From Halapricum salinum (lineage in GTDB: Archaea; Halobacteriota; Halobacteria; Halobacteriales; Haloarculaceae): a DNA stretch of 64,000 bases. Position 1 is the stretch's first letter. Each line of letters begins with the position of its first letter. Where the stretch lies: contig NZ_CP031310.1 of NCBI RefSeq assembly GCF_004799665.1, positions 124,001 to 188,000 of the forward strand, in the 5' to 3' direction. The notes beneath the pieces were generated by a model that did no database searches, had not been told where the DNA came from, and saw only the letters and a program-made list of their open reading frames with translations. Below are positions 18,725 through 30,748 of this stretch, in pieces. Position numbers and translations under genes: made by a program.

Positions 18725-20470
18725 TTAATGGCTACTATCGCCCTCGTGGATCGATTCACCCTCGAACAGTCGGCGGGCGATCGAGAACGTCTGTTCGCGC
18801 TCGCGCCGGGTCGGGAAGTGCGCGGCCATGTAGCGTGCGGTCGCCAGCAACGGGAGTCGCTGTTCTTCCCGTGCGTCGGCCCGCTCGGCGCGCTCGATGG
18901 CGACTTCCAGACTCTGGAGCGTGTGAAAGCCCGCGTCTTCCCGGAGCAGTCCCTCGCCGAGCGTCTGGATCAGCGCGTCGACGTCCCCGCCCGAAGCGAA
19001 GTGGTCGGCGACGAGCGACCCGGCCTCGTTCACGCGACCCTGTTGGTCGAACGTCTCCAGGAGCGCCTCACGGACGGCTTCGGGGTCGCTGTCTGGACCA
19101 CCATCGGGAATCGGTGCGGCTGGCTGGTTCAGGAAACGATCGAGATAGACCGACACCGCGCCGTCGAACGCGGGTCGGTAGGCCTCGACGGCGTCGGTCC
19201 GCAGCGCGAACTTTTGGGCTGCGTTGGCGTACGTGTAGGTGTGGTGGACGGTGTTCCAGTCGCCGAACTCGTTGCTGGTCGCGAACTGTGCGACTCGCCG
19301 GGTCGCGGCGTCGGCAACCGCGTCGGTGAGTTGGGGAGCGGTCGCGCCCGCTTTGATCGCGTCAGTCAACGCGTCGACGATCGCGTGCGGGTCGTCCCCG
19401 AGGAGGACGTCGACAAAGTCGTCCGGCCGCGTCCACTCGGTGCCCTCGCCAGCCGCGACGAGGCCGTCCAGTCGCTCGTGGGCGTCGAAGACCAGCTGAG
19501 CGACGTCGATCGGCTGTCTCCAGGAGGAGGTCTCCTCGGCGCGTGAGCCATCGGTGAGTTGCGGGACGACCGACGCGAGGACGTCGGGCGCTTCCGACCA
19601 GCCGACGTGTTCCAGCGTCTCGAAGGCCTTGTTCCAGAAATCCAGGGTATGGCTCGAATTCATGTAGAGGTGGTCGGTCGCGGCGGCGACGACGATCTCG
19701 GCGACCGCTTCGGGAGGGAGCGTCGCAGCGGCCGTCCGGAGACAGCGCTCGGCACCATCTTCGTCCCGGACCTCGCAGGTCTCGCGGAACCACGACTTGA
19801 GGCGGTCTTTCGAGAGGTCCTGGTTGCCGAGCGCGTACTGATCGAACCGCGGCGGTTCACCGGAACAGTTGTCGGCGACTTCGCCGATTCCGACGTACAT
19901 CGCGCGCTGGCGGTCGACGCGGTCGAGGTGGTCGTAGAGGTTCGCCATCGCGCCCAGCGTCGTGAGCCCGCGGCCCCACCCCGCGTCGCGGTAGGTCGTC
20001 CCGAACGAGACGGCCGTGTCGAGCGGCGTCTGGAATCCCTCACCGAGGTCGTCGAGGTGGATGACAGCCTTGGCGGTCACCAGCGAGAGGTTCTCCTGCA
20101 TGCCGTCGACCAGTCGGTTGCGCCAGTGTGTCTCCGGGGGGACGTCGGGTTCGGGATCGGGGTCGACGTACACCTGGCCGTCCTCGATGGCAGTCGGAAA
20201 GGTCTGGACGTCGTCGGCCCAGATGTCGAAGGTGTCCCCGCAGGCCAGTTCGAACCGCGCGTGGTGCCAGTGACACGTGAGAATGCCGTCTTCGACTGTG
20301 CCCTCCGTGAGTGGAAAGCCCATGTGCGGACAGCGGTTGTCGACGGCGTAGACCTCGTCCCCGTGGTGAAACAGCGCAACGTGGCGATTCTGGGGGCTGG
20401 CGAGCAGTCGGCCCTCCTCGCGGAGGTCGGCCAGATCGGCGACTGGGACGTAGCTATCGTCGACGGACAT
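18725..20470 (-). CDS. Rieske [2Fe-2S] domain fused to a large helical domain of unknown function
   Basis: 581 residues from ATG 20470 (MSVDDSYVPVADLADL). Residues 1-110 are a Rieske ferredoxin-like domain with both cluster motifs, CPHMG and CHWHHARF, 16 residues apart. The remaining 470 residues are mainly helical and His-rich: HLDDLGEGFQTPLDTAVSFG, MYVGIGEVADNCSG, YMNSSHTLDFWNKAFETLEH, and NTVHHTYTYANAAQKFAL. I do not recognise this domain. Conserved-looking His and Asp/Glu residues hint at a second metal site, which would make the protein an oxygenase or oxidase with its own electron carrier, but this is inference. Confidence 0.75.
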   Translation of the reverse strand: MSVDDSYVPVADLADLREEGRLLASPQNRHVALFHHGDEVYAVDNRCPHMGFPLTEGTVEDGILTCHWHHARFELACGDTFDIWADDVQTFPTAIEDGQVYVDPDPEPDVPPETHWRNRLVDGMQENLSLVTAKAVIHLDDLGEGFQTPLDTAVSFGTTYRDAGWGRGLTTLGAMANLYDHLDRVDRQRAMYVGIGEVADNCSGEPPRFDQYALGNQDLSKDRLKSWFRETCEVRDEDGAERCLRTAAATLPPEAVAEIVVAAATDHLYMNSSHTLDFWNKAFETLEHVGWSEAPDVLASVVPQLTDGSRAEETSSWRQPIDVAQLVFDAHERLDGLVAAGEGTEWTRPDDFVDVLLGDDPHAIVDALTDAIKAGATAPQLTDAVADAATRRVAQFATSNEFGDWNTVHHTYTYANAAQKFALRTDAVEAYRPAFDGAVSVYLDRFLNQPAAPIPDGGPDSDPEAVREALLETFDQQGRVNEAGSLVADHFASGGDVDALIQTLGEGLLREDAGFHTLQSLEVAIERAERADAREEQRLPLLATARYMAAHFPTRREREQTFSIARRLFEGESIHEGDSSH

Positions 20471-20597
20471 GTATGTGGAGTGGTGCCACGCCACTAAATG
20501 CGTTCCCTGAAGCGCGTTTTTGTGATTCGACTGACAACCGAAAACAGATGGATTTATCAACCAGCTTCGAAAACGAACGCGACGAGTACGAATGGGA

Positions 20598-21290
20598 ATG
20601 GATCGACGTGACGCGCTCCGCGTCGTGGGTGGAGTATCGATTGCAGGACTGGCCGGGTGTTCGATGCTCGGCGGCGGTTCGGACGACGGGTCCAGTGGTG
20701 GGGCGTTGTTCAGCGAGTCCTTCGAGGCCAACGGGGTGCCCGGGACAATGAACGACGACAGTCAGCAGAACGCGAGCGTCTCGATCACCTCCGACCTCGC
20801 CAGCGACGGTTCGCAGTCGCTCGGGATGGCGTCGACACCTGGAACGAGTACCAGCGCAAAAGTCACGACCACGGAGTCGTTCGCTGGGGCGGGGAAGCAC
20901 GCTGTCGACCTCTACAAGGTCGCCGACGACGTCGACGAGGGCGGCTGTCGACTCCGCCTGCTCGACGCGAACACCGACGCCGAAGTCAGCCTGTTCGACA
21001 TCGACTACTACGGCGGCGTCAGTTTCGAGGAGAAAGACGAGAACGGCGATCGGATCGCTCAGTCGTCGTTCGGCGCTCGACTGTCGAACGAGGAGTGGCA
21101 CGAACTCTCGATCACCGTCAGTGAAGAGGGCCTCACCTTCGCAGTCGACGAGCAGAAAACGAGCTATCAACCGAGCCTGTCGTGGGCCGACCGCGATGTC
21201 GTCGTCCAGCTCAACGCCAACGTCTGGGGTGGCGCGTGGGGGTCGAAACTCGACGTCCGCTTCGACAATCTGCGCATCTCCGACCTGTAG
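20598..21290 (+). CDS. Tat-exported lipoprotein with jelly-roll (LamG-like) domain
   Basis: 230 residues from ATG 20598; an ATG two codons earlier is equally possible. The N-terminus MDRRDALRVVGGVSIAGLAG followed by Cys is a twin-arginine signal with a lipobox, so the mature protein is lipid-anchored outside the cell. The rest is a beta-sandwich: HAVDLYKVADDVDEGG, LSNEEWHELSITVSEEGLTF, and KLDVRFDNLRISDL at the end, the usual closing strand of concanavalin-like/LamG folds. It may bind carbohydrate. TATA-like ATTTATC at about 20552-20558 serves it. DnaJ follows in the same direction after 70 bases. Confidence 0.78.
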   Translation: MDRRDALRVVGGVSIAGLAGCSMLGGGSDDGSSGGALFSESFEANGVPGTMNDDSQQNASVSITSDLASDGSQSLGMASTPGTSTSAKVTTTESFAGAGKHAVDLYKVADDVDEGGCRLRLLDANTDAEVSLFDIDYYGGVSFEEKDENGDRIAQSSFGARLSNEEWHELSITVSEEGLTFAVDEQKTSYQPSLSWADRDVVVQLNANVWGGAWGSKLDVRFDNLRISDL

Positions 21291-21360: not shown

Positions 21361-22521
21361 ATGAGCGAGGACTTCTACGACATTCTGGGGGTCTCCCGTG
21401 ACGCCGACGCCGACGAGATCCAGGAGGCCTACCGGGAGAAGGCCAGAGAGTATCACCCAGACGTCAGTGACGATCCGAACGCCGAGGAGAAATTCAAGAA
21501 AGCAAAGAAGGCAAAGGAGGTCCTGACGGACGAGGAGAAACGCCAGGCCTACGACCAGATGGGGCACGAGCGCTTCGAGCAGGCCGAGAAACACGGCGGC
21601 TTCGACGGCCAGGGCGGCGCTGGCGGTCGCGGCGGTATGGGCGGCGACCCCTTCGGCGGTGGCGGCGGGTTCAACATGCAAGACATCTTCGACCAGTTCT
21701 TCGGCGGGGGCGGCCGCGGCGGCCGCGACGGTAATCGCCCACAACAGGGTCAGGACCTGAAAACCCGTCTGGAGGTCGATCTCGAAGACGCCTACGAGGG
21801 CGTCGAGAAGCAGCTGACCATCAGGCGGCCCGAACGCTGTGGGGACTGCGACGGCAGCGGTCACCCGCCGGGCTCGGACAGCCAGACGTGCCCGGAGTGT
21901 GACGGGCGCGGGCAGGTCACACAGGTCCAGCAAACCCCCATGGGGCGCGTCCAGCAGACGACGACCTGCCGCCGCTGTGGCGGTGAGGGGACCCTCTACG
22001 AGGAGACGTGTTCGACCTGCCGCGGCGAGGGAATCGTCCGTAACGAGGCGACGCTGACCGTGGAAGTACCTGCGGGGATCCGAGACGGACAGACCCTCCG
22101 AATGGACGGCGAGGGCGCGCCTGGTGAGAACGGCGGTCCCAACGGCGACCTGCTGGTGGATATCGCGATCCGCGAGCACGACACCTTCGAGCGCGAGGGC
22201 GACGATCTTCGCCTGCGTGAGGCGGTCTCGTTCCCCCAGGCGGTCTTCGGCGACACGATCGAAGTGGAGACGCTGGACGGCGACGTCGAGTTCGAGGTCC
22301 CGGCCGGAACCCAGAGCGGCGAGACCTTCCGGCTGGAGGGCAAGGGCATGCCCCGACTCCGTCGGCGCGGCCACGGCGACCTCTTCGTGACGGTCCAGAT
22401 CTACACGCCCGATAGCCTCAACAGCGAACAGCGCGAGGCGCTGGAGGCGTTCGCGGAGGCCGGCGGCGAGGAGATCGACGTCGAACAGGGCTTCTTCGAG
22501 AAGCTGAAGAACAGTTTCTGA
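21361..22521 (+). CDS. dnaJ: Chaperone protein DnaJ
   Basis: 386 residues, type I DnaJ. J domain residues 1-70 with HPD (EYHPDVSDDP) that stimulates DnaK; Gly/Phe-rich linker at about 80-125 (GGAGGRGGMGG); zinc domain with four CxxCxGxG-type repeats (CGDCDGSG, CPECDGRG, CRRCGGEG, CSTCRGEG); and a substrate-binding C-terminal region ending EQGFFEKLKNSF. Haloarchaeal dnaJ often lies close to dnaK and grpE; neither is within this window, so it is at least not directly linked here. TATA-like GCTTTTCAAG lies about 35 bases upstream. Confidence 0.97.
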   Translation: MSEDFYDILGVSRDADADEIQEAYREKAREYHPDVSDDPNAEEKFKKAKKAKEVLTDEEKRQAYDQMGHERFEQAEKHGGFDGQGGAGGRGGMGGDPFGGGGGFNMQDIFDQFFGGGGRGGRDGNRPQQGQDLKTRLEVDLEDAYEGVEKQLTIRRPERCGDCDGSGHPPGSDSQTCPECDGRGQVTQVQQTPMGRVQQTTTCRRCGGEGTLYEETCSTCRGEGIVRNEATLTVEVPAGIRDGQTLRMDGEGAPGENGGPNGDLLVDIAIREHDTFEREGDDLRLREAVSFPQAVFGDTIEVETLDGDVEFEVPAGTQSGETFRLEGKGMPRLRRRGHGDLFVTVQIYTPDSLNSEQREALEAFAEAGGEEIDVEQGFFEKLKNSF

Positions 22522-22543: not shown

Positions 22544-25500
22544 CTAGGTGGCTCGCGCTCTCGCGACGAACTGCCGGGCGACGTTCTGCTGGTCGGCTTC
22601 ATCAGCCCCGACAGTCAGATCCACGGAGACAGTGACCGGCGCGCTGTGGCGCTGGATCGTCACCGAGACGGTGTAGTTGCTGTCGTCGAGAGTGACCGGG
22701 AACGAGCGGTTGTAGTTCCCGTTCGTGACGTTCAGCGTCGTCGCGTTGACGGGACCCGACGTGTTAGTGACCGACACCGCCATCCTGTTGGTCTGGGGGA
22801 GGCTGAAGTTCTCGGCGTCGTTGGTCAGGTTGAGGCGTAACTCGCCTGCCGACTCGTCGTACGTCGGCCCGTAGCTGACGTTCAACGAGACGTTTCGCTT
22901 GACGAACGGCTTCTCCTCCGAGTAGTGCTTGCCGTTGGCCTCGATCGTAACGTTGGCGGTGTAGGTTCCGTTGTCTTCGTCGAAGGCGATCGAGCGGTTG
23001 TAGGCTCCATCGGTGACGTTCACCACCGTGGAGTCACCGGTGGGGAAGTCGTCCTCTAACCACTCGACCACCATCGTCGTCTCCTCGGGGAGGTCGAACC
23101 CGGCGGCTGCGTTCGTCATGTTGAACGCCACTTCACCGCTCGTCGCGTTGTACTCGGGACCCTCGCTGAATTTCAGCGAGACATTTCGATAGACGAACGA
23201 CTGTTCCACCGAATAGCCTTGGCCGTCGCCATCGATCACCACAGACAGGTTATACGTCCCTTTTTCGAGGTCGACCTCGTCGATCGAGGCGGTGTAATTG
23301 CCATCGGTGACCGGGATGTCCTCAGACACTTTCTGACTGTCATCGTCGCTGACTAGGACATTCATCGTCGTCTCCTCGGGGAGATCGAACCCGTCGGCAG
23401 CGTTCGTCATGTTGAACGTCACCTGCTTGGCCGTCGCGTTGTAGTCGGGCCCATCGGCGAACGCCAGGTCGGTCTTCCGGTTGACGAACGAGCCGTTGAC
23501 GGTGTATGTCTGGTCGCCGTGGATGAGCGTTACCATGAGGTCGTAGTGGCCATCGGTGATCTCGGGATCAATCCGTTTCGGGTACTTCCCGTTCGTGACG
23601 TCGGAGGAATCGCGGAACACCTCCACCCCGGATTCGTTCAGGACCGAGACGTTCATCGTGGCTTCTTCAGGTAGCGGCTTCCTGTTGTGCATCTCGTTTG
23701 TCAGACCGAACGTCACCTTGCCGGTCGTCTCGTTGTGCGAAGGTTCGTCGCTAAACCCGAGGTAGACGTCCGAGACGTTGAACGGGACTGTCGTCTCGTT
23801 CTCGGCGTCGAACGTCGGATCTTCGACCAGCACTTCGAGACCGTATTGACCGGCTTCGAGAATACCGGGATCGAGTTGCTGTGATTCACCCTCGATCGCG
23901 CCGAACGAATAGGTCCGGCTAACTCTCACCGAATCTCCCTCCATAACATCCACCGTGACGTTCGCGTCGGCCGGAACCGACCCGCCGATCGACTGGAGAG
24001 TGAAACTGACGTTTCTGGTCGGCGGGTCATACGTCGGTGGCGACGGGGATTCGACCGAGAGCGGTCTGGTAGTCACGGCGAACGTCTCGTTGATCGACTC
24101 TTCTGTCGCAGACGCCAACGTCACGTCGAGCGTGTAGTTCCCCGGATCGAGGCCGTCCCCGATGGTGACGTTCATCGCCGATCCGATACGGCTCGAATCG
24201 TGATTCGTCAGTGGGACGTCAGTGATATTCGACGTCAGCGTCGCGTTCTCTGGGATCGTACTCTCGTTTCCCAGAGTGAACGTCACCTGCCGCGTCGCCG
24301 GGTCGTAGGACGGCGCCTGTCGGAACTGAAGCCCGACCGAGAGGGCCGCTTCGGGGACATTGAAGGACTTGGTTATCGTTCGACTCTCCCCGTCGTGTGT
24401 GAGGGCGACCCGCAGCGTGTGCTCCCCCGCTTCTGAGATCGTGTCGGGGAAGGACTCCGTCACGTTACCCCCGATCGAGACATCTGACCGCACATCTACC
24501 GAACTCCCAGACGGTGTGGTCCGCGTGACGTTCATGCTCGTGTTTCCGGCGAGCGAAGCGTCCACGTTTCGAAGATCGAAGGTGATGTCGTTGTTGTCGG
24601 AGTCGTAGCCAGCGTTTTCGATGGTCACCTGATCGAGCGACGAGGGTGTGGGCGTGGACGTGGACTGGTTTCCGGGAGTCACCGCCGTCTCAGTCGACAG
24701 CGTTCGGTTGTCGTAGGAGACGTTCACGCTGAGTCTGTACGTGGAGTTGGCGTCGAGCGTCGCGTTGTCGAACGTGAGTGTGTAGCTACCGTCTGTGACG
24801 GTCCACTCATTGCTCCAGTGTCTGGTCTGGTTGGAAAGTCTCGCCCCGACGATTGCTCGCTGGGGTAGCGAATCGTTCGCCGAAAGACTGAAGCTGAGTC
24901 GATTGTTCTGATACAACGAATTATCGACCTGAAGCTCGACTTCAGGGGCCGAAGCGTCGTCACCGCCGTCGTCACCACCGCCCATGAGTGGCAACCCATC
25001 GACGATCGGCATCCCGGCCAGCGCAGAGCCGTACAGGGCGAGCACTGTGAGCGCCAGTATGCCGAATACGCCGGCGATACCGTACACCTTCGTTCCGTGT
25101 CGGTCCAGCAACCCGGGATCCGACGCGACTGCCCCCGCGGGCTGGCGACGTTGCCGCCGGCGCTCCCGGAGGTTCTGGACTGCTTGCTCGGTCTCTCCGA
25201 GCAGCGTGACGCCGTTGTACGGCCCCTCCTCGATCACGATGGTGAAGTCCGAGAGCCGCGAACTGTCGGCGTTCTCGGCGATCACGACCGACCCGGCGTC
25301 GGCGGTCACTTCGAGTAACACGCCGAATGCGAGCCGATACGATCCAACGCCGACCTTCAGCGGTTGGGGCGCTTGCACGCCCGTCGTGGTCGCTTCGTCT
25401 TTGATCCCGAGCGTGCTCTCAGATGAGCCCCCAAGGGAACTCGACTGACTGTCCCGGAGGAGAGTCTTCAGGTCGTCGAGGTCGCGGGTGTTCGTCGGCG

Positions 25501-25846
25501 TTCGGCCCTGTTCGTTCTCGACCAGCAACTGAAAGATCGTCGTGTCGTCGGTCGAAGTCACCAGCTCCATCCCGTATTTCCCTTCGACCAGGTCGACCAG
25601 GTCGGCGTGGAACCCGCGTCCGATATCCCGGATCGAGTTCGCCCGGTAGACGGCGTAATACTGTTCCGAGCGGCTGGCTTCCGATTCTCGCGCCCGGAAG
25701 AAGACCGTGGCCTCGACCTCCGTGCCGCGGTCCTGGATCGCCAGTCGGACGCCGTCGAAGAAGAAGTCCTTGATGCGCTGATCGGGCGAGTCCGTCTCGC
25801 TGTCGAGGGGCTGACCCTGGGAGCCGTAGATTCTGATGTCCGACAT
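22544..25846 (-). CDS. Membrane-anchored surface protein with about eight Ig-like repeats (third gene of tubulin-like operon)
   Basis: 1100 residues from ATG 25846, just after the upstream gene's TGA at 25849-25851, with GAGGGTGA before it; GTG 25852 is an alternative. Residues 1-250 are cytoplasmic alpha/beta sequence without recognised motif, ending in a basic RERRRQRRQ stretch. One membrane helix follows at about 254-280 (KVYGIAGVFGILALTVLALY). Then come about eight beta-sandwich repeats of 90-95 residues, each with a P-x-Y-N/D-x-T/A start (GPDYNATAKQVTFNMTN, GPEYNATSGEVAFNMTN) and many N-x-S/T glycosylation sequons. Positive-inside topology puts the repeats outside the cell. The three-gene operon suggests it is the outward-facing partner of the GTPase-like and tubulin-like proteins. 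Function unknown. Confidence 0.8.
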   Translation of the reverse strand: MSDIRIYGSQGQPLDSETDSPDQRIKDFFFDGVRLAIQDRGTEVEATVFFRARESEASRSEQYYAVYRANSIRDIGRGFHADLVDLVEGKYGMELVTSTDDTTIFQLLVENEQGRTPTNTRDLDDLKTLLRDSQSSSLGGSSESTLGIKDEATTTGVQAPQPLKVGVGSYRLAFGVLLEVTADAGSVVIAENADSSRLSDFTIVIEEGPYNGVTLLGETEQAVQNLRERRRQRRQPAGAVASDPGLLDRHGTKVYGIAGVFGILALTVLALYGSALAGMPIVDGLPLMGGGDDGGDDASAPEVELQVDNSLYQNNRLSFSLSANDSLPQRAIVGARLSNQTRHWSNEWTVTDGSYTLTFDNATLDANSTYRLSVNVSYDNRTLSTETAVTPGNQSTSTPTPSSLDQVTIENAGYDSDNNDITFDLRNVDASLAGNTSMNVTRTTPSGSSVDVRSDVSIGGNVTESFPDTISEAGEHTLRVALTHDGESRTITKSFNVPEAALSVGLQFRQAPSYDPATRQVTFTLGNESTIPENATLTSNITDVPLTNHDSSRIGSAMNVTIGDGLDPGNYTLDVTLASATEESINETFAVTTRPLSVESPSPPTYDPPTRNVSFTLQSIGGSVPADANVTVDVMEGDSVRVSRTYSFGAIEGESQQLDPGILEAGQYGLEVLVEDPTFDAENETTVPFNVSDVYLGFSDEPSHNETTGKVTFGLTNEMHNRKPLPEEATMNVSVLNESGVEVFRDSSDVTNGKYPKRIDPEITDGHYDLMVTLIHGDQTYTVNGSFVNRKTDLAFADGPDYNATAKQVTFNMTNAADGFDLPEETTMNVLVSDDDSQKVSEDIPVTDGNYTASIDEVDLEKGTYNLSVVIDGDGQGYSVEQSFVYRNVSLKFSEGPEYNATSGEVAFNMTNAAAGFDLPEETTMVVEWLEDDFPTGDSTVVNVTDGAYNRSIAFDEDNGTYTANVTIEANGKHYSEEKPFVKRNVSLNVSYGPTYDESAGELRLNLTNDAENFSLPQTNRMAVSVTNTSGPVNATTLNVTNGNYNRSFPVTLDDSNYTVSVTIQRHSAPVTVSVDLTVGADEADQQNVARQFVARARAT

Positions 25847-25848
25847 CG

Positions 25849-27291
25849 TCACCCTCTCCCGAACTTGTTGAGGAGTTCGGTGAACCCGACTGTCGTGACC
25901 GAACCCGTCTCGTCGCGCATCGGGACCCGGTTCCCGTTCTCGTCGATCGTCGTCTGATAGTAGACCGGATGGACCTCTGCGCCGGCCGTCTCGGTGATGA
26001 GACTGTTGACGTTCTCGCTCTCTCTGAGTCTGTTGTTGACGTACTGCTTGAAGTCCTCGAAGTATCGGTGGGGTTCGAGGCCGCGCTCGGTCCGGAAGTC
26101 CTCGGCGAGGTAGTCCGCCTTCGTCGCGACGATCATGACGTCCTTGTTCTTGGCCGACTGGAGGATCGAGAAGTACGACGAGATCTCCATCTGCTCGTTG
26201 TTGACGAACCGTTCGATGTCGATCACCAGCAGGAGCGTGTCGGCCCCGCGGACGCCCTCGGCGAGTCGTCGAAGGGTCATGTCCATGTCCTCCTCGGCGA
26301 TCATCCCCGTGAGCGCGTCCGGGAGTCGCTGGAGGTACTCACCGGCGTAGTCGATCCCGGACAGTTTGACGTTCTTGGGGAAGACCGAGCCGTGGACGTA
26401 CTGGAAGCGCAGGTCCTTGACCTCGCCGCGACCGGTCGCTTCGACGATCCACTTCGTCTCCTGTCTGTCCAGCGCCTCGACCATCGACATCAGATCCTGA
26501 CTCGGGTTCAGCGGCGTGTTACTCTTGACCGAATCGGTCCGGTCGAGCGCTTCGAGGTACGCGCCGATCAGGAAGAGACTCTTGCCCGAGGCACGCGGCC
26601 CGAGGATGAAAAAGTCCGTCTCGGCGTCGTACTTGACGAACTGTTTCATGGTCACGACGAACAGCACCGTCGCGGCCGCGTGCAGCTCGATGTTCGAGGC
26701 GTTGATCTCGGTCGCCGAGAGACTGACCGACTGCATCGCGACCGAGTTGTCGGCAACGTCGATGAGAGCCGGATAGTTGATGTGCAGTTCCAGAAAGCCG
26801 ACCACACAGAACGAGGCAACCATGTAGAAGATGAGCTTCGAGGCCCGCCTGAACTCCAGTGCCTGGGCGGTCTGCATCCGGAACAGTTTGCGTCCGCCAC
26901 CGACGACCACGCCGGAGACGAGACCGAAGAGTAACCAGCCGGCACTGCCGACCAGGTCGACGTTCGGCAGGAACAGGTCCATCGTCTGGAGGCCGACGAG
27001 CCCCAGCAGGAGGCCGAACCAGAGGAGAAACGCTTGCCATCGTTTCTTCGGGTCGATCGTCATCAACGCCAACAACCCGAGGAAGAACCCGAAGATCGTG
27101 ACGCTACTGGCCTCCAGTGAGACGCCGTACATGATCAACACGTCGAAGAGCGATCGAACGATGTTCGACGCCTCCCACGCCGAACCGAGCATCTGTGCGA
27201 TCGGCCACGCCAGCGCCAGGATGACGGCGAAGTAGCCGATCAGCTTGAGCTTCTCCAGATTTTCCTGGAGATACGTGATCACGTTCGACAT
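25849..27291 (-). CDS. Polytopic membrane protein with P-loop GTPase-like domain (second gene of tubulin-like operon)
   Basis: 480 residues. The N-terminal 215 residues hold five or six hydrophobic helices (for example GYFAVILALAWPIAQMLGSA and WLLFGLVSGVVVGGG). The C-terminal half is a cytoplasmic nucleotide-binding domain: Walker A GPRASGKS at residues 231-238, a DxxG-type switch (SGIDYAGEYL, about 311-320), a hydrophobic Walker B-like strand TLLLVIDIERF, and TKAD (residues 390-393) in the position of the GTPase NKxD motif. This order fits a divergent small-GTPase fold. It starts three bases after the tubulin-like stop and overlaps the regulatory start of the Ig-repeat gene, so the three proteins are probably made together. 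It could be the switch that connects cytoplasmic polymer to surface protein. Confidence 0.82.
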   Translation of the reverse strand: MSNVITYLQENLEKLKLIGYFAVILALAWPIAQMLGSAWEASNIVRSLFDVLIMYGVSLEASSVTIFGFFLGLLALMTIDPKKRWQAFLLWFGLLLGLVGLQTMDLFLPNVDLVGSAGWLLFGLVSGVVVGGGRKLFRMQTAQALEFRRASKLIFYMVASFCVVGFLELHINYPALIDVADNSVAMQSVSLSATEINASNIELHAAATVLFVVTMKQFVKYDAETDFFILGPRASGKSLFLIGAYLEALDRTDSVKSNTPLNPSQDLMSMVEALDRQETKWIVEATGRGEVKDLRFQYVHGSVFPKNVKLSGIDYAGEYLQRLPDALTGMIAEEDMDMTLRRLAEGVRGADTLLLVIDIERFVNNEQMEISSYFSILQSAKNKDVMIVATKADYLAEDFRTERGLEPHRYFEDFKQYVNNRLRESENVNSLITETAGAEVHPVYYQTTIDENGNRVPMRDETGSVTTVGFTELLNKFGRG

Positions 27292-27294
27292 TGG

Positions 27295-30200
27295 TCAGTC
27301 GTCGTCTGCCGCTGCGGTCTGTTTGTGCTCAACGCGTTCGTAGTAGCCCGAGAGGAGGTCGTCGACGATCTCGTCCTCGTCTCGGAGATAGAACTCGACG
27401 TCGTCGTCGTACTCCATGTTGAGGTGGCCGGTCCGGCGCACGTAGTAGCCGTCTTCGAGACCGTAGCTGTGATGGACGAGGATGTCGTCGCCGAGCTCCG
27501 AGAGTCGGTTCTCGTACCCGTTGTGGTAGCCGTCGGCCTGGACGAACTTCCGGAGGTTGTCGAGGAACACCCCGTTGATGAAGACGCCGAGCCCGATGTC
27601 CCACGGCCCCCCGACCTCGGAGGCCCAGCTCGTGTAGGGATTTTTCGACCGTTTCCCGCTGCCACCGAGATCGAACGCGCCGTTGAACATGTTCTCGAAG
27701 TCGATCGACTCCGAATCCATCTGTGAGATTGCCGGACTCATCACCGACAGCCGGATGCGGAGGTTGTCGTAGCGTTTGCGGTCTTTCGAGAGTTGCCTGC
27801 GTCGCAAGCCCGTGTACTCCTGATTGCGAGCGTTTCGCGACAGTTCTTCGAGGTTCTCCCGGACGCGCTGGTGCTCTTCGCGGCTGCTGAAGAAGTCACT
27901 CTGTGCGATGTTGTCGTTGCCGGTCGCTCTGAACACGTCGTCCGGCCGGATGTTCTTGATGTAGACGTAGTCCTCTTCTTCGGTCGCGACCCGCTGTCGG
28001 GAGTCGTCGTCGTACTCGCTCCAGTTCGTACGGAACGACGAACTGTGCTCGGACCAGCTGTCACGGCGGTTGTTCAGATCTTCGAACAGTTCGATGGTCG
28101 GCTGATAGAGGTCGAGCTGCTCCTGGACGTCGTCCAGTTCGCTCTCGATCTCGCGAACGCGTTCCTCGACGTCTCCCATCTCGACGACGTCGTCTTCGAT
28201 CGCTTTCTTCGCGATGCGCTCGACTTCGTCGACGTCGACCGGATCGGCACTGAGCGCCGATTCCAGCGACCGGACGCGTTCGCCGTCCAGTCCGTCGAGC
28301 TGGTCCCGCAGGCTGTCGATCATCTGCTGGACCAGTTGCTGTCGGTTCTGGTGAGCCGTCTCGATGATCGTCTGGGGGTCGAACTGGACCGACGCGCTGA
28401 ACTGCCCGCCGGGCGGCCCGATCGCGAAGATGCCGTTGTCGCTCAGCTTGTTCTTTTGCATCTGGTAGTCCTTGTTGGCCTCCTGGCGATCCTGCTCGGT
28501 CGAACTCTCCCACGGCGTGAGCTTTTCGAGCGTCCCCTCCGGTTGCATCAAATTCATGAACGCGATCCGGGCGTTCTTGAGCTGGGTGAGCGACGCCTCG
28601 ATGGCTTGCCTGTCGCGCTGGAAGTTGTAGTTCGTCCCCTCGAAAGCGCTCTGGACACGATCGAGCGACTGCGTGACCCCTGCCCGGTTGACCTGTTCGA
28701 CCTCCCCGGGCGATGCCGCGTTCGTGACGGCGTTGAGAAAGCGGTTGAGCTGACCGGACAGTTCCGAGAGTGCGTCCTCGATCGCGCTCTCGTCGTGTTG
28801 CTGGAGCGCCTGGAGGTCGTCGTTGGTCGCGCGCTGCCACTCCGTCAGCCGTTGCTGGACTTCCTCGGATTGCTCGTCCCGGAGTGCTTCCAGTTCGGCG
28901 TTGGCGTCCTCGAGGTCGGACTGGAGGCGACTCCGTTTTTCGTCTTTGTCCTCGACTTCTGCTTCGAGTCGCTGCAGTTTGACGCCCGGCGCTGAGTTGG
29001 TGTTCCCCGACCGGATCAGGTACTCGATGGCGTTTCGAATCCGGCTGTCGTCGATTATCTTTCGCCGTTCGAGGATCTCTTTTCGCTGGCCGAGAGCCCG
29101 CAGATCCTGTTCGAGAATCTCCGCGAGGTGCTCGTCGATGTTGTCGACGAAGCTGCCCGCGTCCTGATTGGTCGCGTCGACAGCGCGCAGCGACGCCGCG
29201 ATGTACTCGATCTGTTCGACGACGTCGTCACTTTCGGCCTTGGCGTCCTCGATGATCCCTCTGAAGATCGACAGCGATTGGTAATCCAATTCGTTGAAGA
29301 GATCGAATTCGAGCAGCGACTCGACGTTCTCCAGTCGCTCGGAGAGGTCGGCGACGTCGAGGTCACGAAGGCCGGATTCGACGTTCTGATCGTCGTAGTG
29401 TCTCGCGAGGAATCTGTCGATCTGAGCGTAGATCTCCTCTTCCAGTCGGAGCGCCTGCTCCTTGTCGTCGAGAATCTCGCGAATCGCTTCCCTCGCGTCG
29501 TTGATAGCCTCGACGTTGTACCGTAGTACCTGTGGAATCCCGATAGTGAACGGCGCGTAACTCGGTGTGTCGGCGAACGGGTCTTCGAGACCTTCGGTGT
29601 TGTAGTAGGCAGCGAGCAGGTAGATCGCCGCCTCGTCGAACTCGTTGAGGTACTTGTCCGTCTGGATGCGGTTGCCGGTCTTCCCGTCGAAGTCAGTCGG
29701 ATCGATGGGCAGCAGGACCACGTCCTTGAAGATCTCCTCGCGCTGGAGGTGGAGATACTCCAGTTCGGTCAGCGCGGCGAAGGCGTTGGCGTTCTCCTTG
29801 GGGCCTTCCGTGTGGTTCGGAAGGACGCCGAACAGCGTGATCTCGGCGGTACGGTGTTGCTGCTGGAGGTGCCTGGCCAGATCGACGAGGATGCCCGATC
29901 CGGTCCCACCACCGAGTCCACAGAGCACCGCGACCTTCCCCTTGGTCGGGAGATCGATGTACGTCGAGATGCTGTCGTCCTCGGCGTAGGCCTTGTAGTA
30001 GATCGCCTTCCCGAGCCCGCGCTTGCGGACGACGCCCTTGGCGAAATCCAGGTTCTCGTTGATGTGGGGCTCTTCGATCCACCACTTGTCCTCGTCCATA
30101 CCGTTGCCCGCAGCGATACGGGGTACGGCGTCGTCCCCCAGTAGGTCGATTGTCCCGCTCAGCTGGATGCTCTCGGTGATCAGCTTGTACTCGAGTTCCA

Positions 30201-30453
30201 GATTCCCCGTCCGTCCCTGATCCGGATCTCTGAGTTCGTTCTCTAGTTCGGTCACCCGTTCACGGATATCCCTGATTCGCTGTCGATCCGTGTTCTGCTC
30301 TCCTTCCGCCGTGTCGATGATGGTCACGCTCACCGACTGTGGACTCGGCCGTGGCTCCAGAATATCCCGCAACACCCAATCCGACTCCAGCAGCGTGAAC
30401 GCGAGCTCTTTTCCTGCGCCGCCGATCGAAAAGATCTGTGAGGGGAAGTTCAT
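27295..30453 (-). CDS. Giant tubulin/FtsZ-superfamily protein with coiled coils (first gene of operon)
   Basis: 1052 residues, no membrane segment. The first 400 resemble a tubulin-like GTPase: FSIGGAGKELA (nucleotide loop T1, residues 8-18), a strand ending IIDTAE, and the superfamily signature GLGGGTGSGILVDLARHL at residues 179-196, followed by TLFGVLPNHTEGPKENANAF. Residues about 490-550 and 765-800 are coiled coils rich in Glu/Arg/Gln. The last 250 residues are alpha/beta and acidic. Haloarchaeal FtsZ1, FtsZ2 and CetZ are near 400 residues, so this is a different class, comparable to the Pfam Tubulin_2 group. GTP binding is likely. Polymerisation is inference, and I could not place a clear T7 catalytic loop. 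Confidence 0.82.
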   Translation of the reverse strand: MNFPSQIFSIGGAGKELAFTLLESDWVLRDILEPRPSPQSVSVTIIDTAEGEQNTDRQRIRDIRERVTELENELRDPDQGRTGNLELEYKLITESIQLSGTIDLLGDDAVPRIAAGNGMDEDKWWIEEPHINENLDFAKGVVRKRGLGKAIYYKAYAEDDSISTYIDLPTKGKVAVLCGLGGGTGSGILVDLARHLQQQHRTAEITLFGVLPNHTEGPKENANAFAALTELEYLHLQREEIFKDVVLLPIDPTDFDGKTGNRIQTDKYLNEFDEAAIYLLAAYYNTEGLEDPFADTPSYAPFTIGIPQVLRYNVEAINDAREAIREILDDKEQALRLEEEIYAQIDRFLARHYDDQNVESGLRDLDVADLSERLENVESLLEFDLFNELDYQSLSIFRGIIEDAKAESDDVVEQIEYIAASLRAVDATNQDAGSFVDNIDEHLAEILEQDLRALGQRKEILERRKIIDDSRIRNAIEYLIRSGNTNSAPGVKLQRLEAEVEDKDEKRSRLQSDLEDANAELEALRDEQSEEVQQRLTEWQRATNDDLQALQQHDESAIEDALSELSGQLNRFLNAVTNAASPGEVEQVNRAGVTQSLDRVQSAFEGTNYNFQRDRQAIEASLTQLKNARIAFMNLMQPEGTLEKLTPWESSTEQDRQEANKDYQMQKNKLSDNGIFAIGPPGGQFSASVQFDPQTIIETAHQNRQQLVQQMIDSLRDQLDGLDGERVRSLESALSADPVDVDEVERIAKKAIEDDVVEMGDVEERVREIESELDDVQEQLDLYQPTIELFEDLNNRRDSWSEHSSSFRTNWSEYDDDSRQRVATEEEDYVYIKNIRPDDVFRATGNDNIAQSDFFSSREEHQRVRENLEELSRNARNQEYTGLRRRQLSKDRKRYDNLRIRLSVMSPAISQMDSESIDFENMFNGAFDLGGSGKRSKNPYTSWASEVGGPWDIGLGVFINGVFLDNLRKFVQADGYHNGYENRLSELGDDILVHHSYGLEDGYYVRRTGHLNMEYDDDVEFYLRDEDEIVDDLLSGYYERVEHKQTAAADDD

Positions 30454-30748
30454 TTATTGACAGTCGGACTGACTGACCGGCCATACTTATTAATTTTGTA
30501 TAGTTTTCACATCTGATATTCACACTCGTTTTTATATGACGGTTAATATTTTGTGCCCCTTAGGCAATTCATGATCTCAGATGAACGTAAAATGAGAATA
30601 CTATATCGACCTGAAAATTTCGGTATAGGGCGTGCGGTGGGTAGCTGTCGCAGATCGTGCAGGATAAGTCCGTTTCACTGTGTGGGCCTGCAGAATCGGA
30701 ATCCGAGTAGACACCTTTTAAGGGGACCGCAAGCGTCGAGACGACGTG
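30454..30748 (-). promoter_or_regulatory. AT-rich divergent promoter region of the tubulin-like operon
   Basis: Bases 30470-30620 are far more AT-rich than the rest of the window. On the minus strand AATTAATAAG (30487-30496) is a strong TATA box whose expected start is near 30464, leaving a leader of about ten bases before ATG 30453. Further AT-rich words (ATTTTTATATGAC, GGTTAATATTTTG, AATACTATATCG) extend to 30610 and could hold regulator sites. On the plus strand CTTTTAAG at 30715-30722 is the TATA box of the lipoprotein gene at 30749. No gene is seen in this 295-base stretch. Confidence 0.6.

Follow-up and report, generated by a model that had tools for sequence, protein, structure and literature searches.

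The window analysed here, a 64-kb stretch of Halapricum salinum DNA (positions 124,001 to 188,000 of a 3.45-Mb contig; all coordinates below are counted within the window), carries a three-gene unit encoding a tubulin-like protein (F1), a membrane GTPase (F3) and a surface protein (F2), which co-occur in Halobacteria far more often than expected by chance. The locus is a haloarchaeal form of a type that is already known from the FtsZ-like 1 (FtsZl1) family described in 2010 (Makarova and Koonin; PMC2875224) and from the tubulin plus GTPase conflict systems proposed in 2020 (Kaur et al.; PMC7159879). Added here are a steady third partner, F2, with a conserved head and a replaced or very fast-changing outer part, a quantified linkage of the three genes, and an archaeal subtype in which an intact GTPase is paired with an apparently dead one and which sometimes has Hsp70, GrpE or vWA genes as neighbours. 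A preliminary description of the sequence had proposed a joint system reaching from the cytoplasm to the surface. The anatomy and the co-working of the three proteins are backed by structure prediction and co-occurrence, while the published FtsZ-like 1 family had been missed. The formation of a polymer and the roles in adhesion, mating or defence ventured there were conjecture and are taken up below as possibilities. Few branches of the tubulin superfamily have diverged as far as FtsZ-like 1, and proposals for its function have since 2010 come from gene context.

The open reading frames (ORFs) lie where they had been placed and form one co-directional, tightly packed set. F1 and F3 are separated by 3 bp (27292-27294), and F3 and F2 overlap by 4 bp (25849-25852). 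The 157 bp upstream of F1 are 65% AT against 35% window-wide and rank first among 3192 sliding stretches; the promoter role assigned to them is presumed.

27295..30453, minus strand: F1, FtsZ-like 1 / Tubulin_2 protein of 1052 residues (Pfam PF13809 and fold matches)
25849..27291, minus strand: F3, polytopic membrane GTPase of 480 residues, remote DO-GTPase2 relative (motifs, weak profile matches)
22544..25852, minus strand: F2, single-pass surface protein of 1102 residues (ORF, hydropathy, sequons)
30454..30610, minus strand: upstream AT-rich region, presumed promoter of the three-gene unit (base composition)

Linkage was counted in 394 Halobacteria genomes of 90% completeness or more. F1 was found in 48 of them, F3 in 56 and the F2 head in 48. 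Scoring covered just the top few candidates of each genome, which makes absences less certain than presences. All F1 genomes (48/48) also contain F3, against 6.8 expected by a calculation that ignores genome relatedness. F3 and F2 occur together in 47 genomes and all three families in 44. At 46 of the 58 F1 places F3 lies no more than 500 bp away, on the same strand in 45 of these 46, and at 50 of the 51 F2 places F2 lies within 3 kb of F3, with the strand always shared. In a genome-collection scan that its pattern search restricted to ten loci, the named homologous loci come from Halobacteria and methanogens, and Methanosarcina acetivorans matches Tubulin_2. The order F1-F3-F2 recurs in methanogens, where F1 and F3 are followed in most loci by a protein consisting of a head, a helix and a short tail. 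Methanogen and haloarchaeal heads match each other in profile comparison (E=2.3e-6 over 185 columns), and the Methanohalobium plasmid pMETEV01 carries F1, F3 and F2. The expectation that the three genes would be kept together in other genomes is borne out, confirming that they are a real unit.

The tubulin fold of F1 had been named beforehand as a test of the preliminary description. In the AlphaFold2 model, built from 11 sequences (mean predicted local distance difference test score (pLDDT) 76, predicted template modelling score 0.59), all 50 of the 50 PDB matches listed are FtsZ or tubulin, the best with E=3.5e-4 and probability 1.0. About 320-360 columns, roughly the whole length of FtsZ, are aligned at 10-17% identity. 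At the profile level F1 matches Pfam Tubulin_2 (PF13809) with E=1.4e-10, above the cut-off, and the Pfam Tubulin model just below its own cut-off; both models match 11 of the 11 members of the first F1 alignment. The GLGGGTGSG signature is present, with G179-G183, G185 and G187 invariant in two F1 alignments, and two long helices, probably the coiled coils claimed earlier, are predicted in the model. A C-terminal block is also conserved, its residues W951, D965, G975, Y980, H995, G1002 and R1007 being invariant in both alignments.

29404..30453, minus strand: F1 residues 1-350, predicted tubulin/FtsZ-type nucleotide-binding part, boundary approximate (strands and helices alternate in the model)
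29893..29919, minus strand: F1 residues 179-187, GLGGGTGSG nucleotide-binding (T4) loop (alignments)
28798..28989, minus strand: F1 residues 489-552, long helix, probable coiled coil (model secondary structure)
27982..28176, minus strand: F1 residues 760-824, long helix, probable coiled coil (model secondary structure)
27331..27636, minus strand: F1 residues 940-1041, conserved C-terminal block (alignments)

F3 likewise proved to be the membrane protein with GTPase motifs that had been described. Five hydrophobic segments are clear in the window copy and a sixth is clear in orthologs. An intact P-loop (Walker A) is present in 67 of 80 distinct members of the family, and in these 67 the D and G of DxxG are always kept, E follows (DxxGE) in 59, and the G4 motif reads T/S-K-x-D in most, with the final D in 67/67. 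The window F3 matches DO-GTPase2 (PF19993) with E=0.03 and 14.4 bits against a curated cut-off of 27. Related copies reach E values of 3.1e-5 to 3e-4 (best 23.9-24.2 bits), all below that cut-off. F3 is thus remotely related to DO-GTPase2, short of formal membership.

26632..27243, minus strand: F3 residues 17-220, five to six membrane helices (hydropathy, kept in orthologs)
26578..26601, minus strand: F3 residues 231-238, Walker A / G1 (GPRASGKS) (motif)
26338..26352, minus strand: F3 residues 314-318, G3 (DYAGE) (motif)
26113..26127, minus strand: F3 residues 389-393, G4 (ATKAD) (motif)

F2 comprises 1102 residues from a GTG start, or 1100 from the in-frame ATG two codons downstream. Its described plan of a head, one membrane helix and about eight outward repeats rich in sequons holds: the head has no N-glycosylation sequon and the part past the helix has 44, where shuffled sequences give 13.4 +/- 3.2. 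A strongly basic stretch precedes the helix. With this stretch before the helix and sequons only after it, F2 is assigned an N-in, C-out topology with a probably glycosylated surface part. The repeats align with one another and are likely beta-sandwiches; their profile matches PKD and other Ig-like domains weakly (best E=0.012). A Pfam WxLIP_HBD match on the repeats (E=5e-9) was set aside as the sum of weak repeat matches, no single stretch of which passes.

25103..25852, minus strand: F2 residues 1 to about 250, conserved cytoplasmic head with alpha/beta fold (head family and model)
25031..25087, minus strand: F2 residues 256-274, single membrane-spanning helix, N-in C-out (hydropathy 2.13; basic stretch on the N-terminal side, all sequons on the other)
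22613..24949, minus strand: F2 residues 302-1080, extracellular repeats, about eight in number and each about 97 residues long, probably Ig-like beta-sandwiches (repeat alignment, weak profile matches)

The head was modelled with a mean pLDDT of 83.5. None of its PDB matches reaches significance (best E=0.04). They include several longin and PAS proteins, and the order of strands and helices is similar to longin or PAS folds, so that a longin fold is a lead only. A roadblock relation was rejected (hhalign profile probability 0.1%), and matches of the head profile to the Max basic helix-loop-helix protein, due to the basic stretch, were taken as chance.

The two parts of F2 vary in very different ways. 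Across 31 single-GTPase modules, in which the helix was placed by hydropathy alone, similarity of F1 is nearly proportional to that of F3 (r=0.99) and correlates with that of the head (r=0.91). Among 274 module pairs of intermediate F1 similarity, drawn from related genomes and not mutually independent, the head was recognisable in 271 and the outer part in none. Past the helix the outer part measures between 7 and 828 residues, with the maximum in the window copy. It amounts to just 7-60 residues in several copies, methanogen tails are also short, and other copies bear CARDB, carboxypeptidase-regulatory or propeller-type domains. The sequences are compatible with both an outer part that has been replaced and one that changes very fast. 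A sensor whose target changes would be expected to show such divergence beside a kept head.

Modules also differ in their number of GTPases. The window module has one F3 only; a sister subtype has two F3 paralogs, of which one is usually intact. The P-loop of the other is ruined, and this copy often comes immediately after F1. The two-F3 modules (L039, L041, L048, L180, L184, L186, L187 and L190) therefore appear, by motifs, to encode an active plus a dead GTPase. Some modules of this subtype have Hsp70, GrpE or vWA genes nearby: those on plasmids of Halorubrum sp. BOL3-1 and of Haloplanus rubicundus, and, with Hsp70, those of two more genomes. At another locus (L040:9074-16463), which lacks F3 and F2, genes for a MoxR-type AAA ATPase and a vWA membrane protein come after an F1 relative; by its gene content it is a different archaeal subtype. 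Kinase-like genes flank many single-GTPase modules, the window's not among them, and the usual HRD aspartate is mostly missing from their products. Of such neighbours in L031, L034, L035, L119 and L196-L201, some have membrane helices and outer beta-sandwich repeats and most have HRD replaced (HYYLSPE, HLRIGPE); they are possibly pseudokinases. In most of the methanogen loci L163-L171, L176 and L177 the gene directly before F1 encodes a small secreted protein, which has a signal at its N terminus and a helix at its C terminus and is likely a fourth component there.

The founding member of FtsZ-like 1 is a protein of 1051 residues from Halorhabdus utahensis, and the 2010 paper gives the family an N-terminal FtsZ-like domain, an extended coiled coil and a C-terminal domain, with predicted GTPases, kinases and vWA proteins as neighbours; the archaeal GTPases are membrane-associated (PMC2875224). 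F1 agrees in its tubulin fold with the GGGTG(S/T)G loop, its long helices, its C-terminal block, its length of about 1050 residues and its adjoining GTPase gene. The window differs in its lack of a vWA or kinase gene, neighbours that are frequent in the family, not obligatory, and that some relatives of the window module have; neither kind gave a match in the 64 kb to the profiles used. Neither F2's conserved head nor its replaced outer part is described in the portion of the 2010 text that was read, and F2 may be one of the unnamed families A1/A2 mentioned there. Compared with FtsZ, CetZ and eukaryotic tubulin, F1 shares the nucleotide-binding fold and the GGGTGSG loop and differs in its low identity, its 1052 residues, its coiled-coil extension and the T7 acid, which was not found. 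The literature search returned no experimental paper on FtsZ-like 1.

Neighbourhoods combining a tubulin with one or two TRAFAC-type GTPases have been proposed as conflict systems, in which Hsp70, GrpE and vWA are among the named components, some GTPases have N-terminal membrane helices, fast-evolving beta-sandwich repeats occur, and two paralogous GTPases are found in 38% (Kaur et al., 2020; PMC7159879). The locus resembles these DO-GTPase/GAP1-N2 systems in its tubulin and GTPase, its membrane helices and its repeats, and the sister subtype shares the Hsp70, GrpE and vWA neighbours. DO-GTPase2 combines TRAFAC-type motifs with a conserved Walker B glutamate, for which the E of DxxGE in F3 is a candidate counterpart by motif. 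Unlike those systems, the window has a single GTPase, the sister subtype having two, and F2 stands in the place of GAP1. MglA-MglB and the longin/roadblock regulators may be analogous in that a small alpha/beta domain acts on a GTPase, although the fold matches of the F2 head are not significant and it has no roadblock sequence relation.

Our preferred reading, held tentatively and at a little less than an even chance, is that the locus is a haloarchaeal FtsZ-like 1 / DO-GTPase-type system acting as an outside-in switch with an output against envelope threat or in biological conflict. It is supported by topology, gene order and co-variation. The strong linkage, the GTPase motifs kept in F3, the tubulin fold of F1, the patchy and partly plasmid-borne distribution, the Hsp70, GrpE and vWA neighbours of the sister subtype and the kinase-like neighbours that mostly lack the HRD aspartate also count in its favour. 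In the mechanism that we infer, from its interactions to its signalling direction and output, glycosylated F2 would use its fast-changing outer part to sense or grip a target at the cell surface, and its conserved head would pass the state to F3, encoded next to it, probably as a regulator. F3 in the GTP state would then recruit F1 or permit its assembly under the membrane, where F1 may polymerise. The output would probably be a response such as local membrane remodelling or growth arrest. A fuller version, in which a receptor with exchangeable outer domains acts through a longin-like regulator on a membrane GTPase and so on assembly of a tubulin polymer, with an active/dead GTPase pair in some relatives, is unlikely. 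If the switch operates, archaea would have a receptor-GTPase-tubulin pathway, and the remodelling and conflict proposals could be compared in one system; the compact three-gene version, with its clear outside-to-inside geometry, is a minimal set to reconstitute.

Several results weigh against the switch. F3 falls below the DO-GTPase2 cut-off. PADLOC gave no meaningful match to a known defence system in the three genes and the eight neighbours tested. GAP1 was not detected in F2 and its relatives at E<=0.1, a threshold at which a remote relation is still possible, and neither GAP1 nor a known effector domain was found in F1, F3 or F2 or, by the searches made, in F2 relatives. Three genomes hold F3 and F2 without detectable F1 (L112, L113 and L114; G311, G373 and G168), which suggests that the GTPase and the surface protein are the minimal pair, and F1 may for this reason not be the sole output. 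Residues 245-330 of F1, where the T7 loop is expected, have no invariant acidic residue in two alignments, in a region where the alignment is uncertain. For that reason ordinary GTP-driven filament turnover of F1 is doubtful.

The last point leads to a reading that concerns the F1 step only and overlaps with the others: F1 would be a GTP-binding scaffold that has lost filament turnover and whose coiled coils form a fixed oligomer, leaving F3 as the sole working GTPase. The T6-T7 region was likewise not identified by the 2010 authors (PMC2875224). Yet about the whole FtsZ length is recovered (about 320 columns) and the GTP loop is invariant, so polymerisation by a changed mechanism is possible. 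The scaffold is somewhat unlikely. Slightly less probable, and also on the unlikely side, is housekeeping membrane remodelling or vesicle formation, with F1 as a membrane-bound filament, F3 as its anchor and timer and F2 as a tie to the S-layer. Remodelling or vesicle formation is the role proposed from gene context in PMC2875224, and the tubulin fold of F1 and the membrane GTPase F3 are confirmed here. A conflict or envelope-threat output is nevertheless preferred because the unit is patchy (48/394 genomes, none in five of the same genus) and plasmid-borne and the outer part changes, features that better fit an accessory function. The extended, glycosylated run of repeats, which in the window copy reaches its greatest length with 828 residues past the helix, and the CARDB, carboxypeptidase-regulatory and similar beta-sandwich domains of other F2 copies speak for adhesion, cell contact or mating, in which F2 would be an adhesin binding other cells and organised beneath the membrane by F1 and F3. 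As a common function this is improbable, since several copies have almost no outer part, and tails of 7-60 residues, like the short methanogen tails, are too little for an adhesin.

The distribution of the unit bears on its origin. A full-length F1 was found in none of the five same-genus genomes searched, and F1 relatives are present on four plasmid records. The simplest reading is that the unit is accessory and has moved laterally. A virus or phage origin was rejected, as no match appeared in viral contigs or phage records at the sensitivity used. A neat recent insertion was also considered and rejected: the unit is absent from the same-genus genomes, but its DnaJ side is not beside TmcA there, so that no empty site could be shown, and the flanking gene order is not kept in those genomes. 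Degraded copies were also seen, the F1 on one of the four plasmids, from Natrialbaceae, being broken into several frames (L181:7917-11442) and another being shortened to 560 residues (G077:C31).

Outside the unit, no transfer RNA genes were found within the window. A full-length DnaJ gene (21361-22521) converges on F2, and the main DnaK gene is far off, at about 3.3 Mb in the contig. As a system part this DnaJ was rejected, as it does not adjoin the module in the relatives read; of the genome's seven J-domain matches it is the best, so it is probably the ordinary DnaJ, and it is treated as a neighbour. Elsewhere, an ORF of 668 residues (18725-20731) appears by eye to encode a Rieske-type iron-sulfur segment with a long additional region after it.

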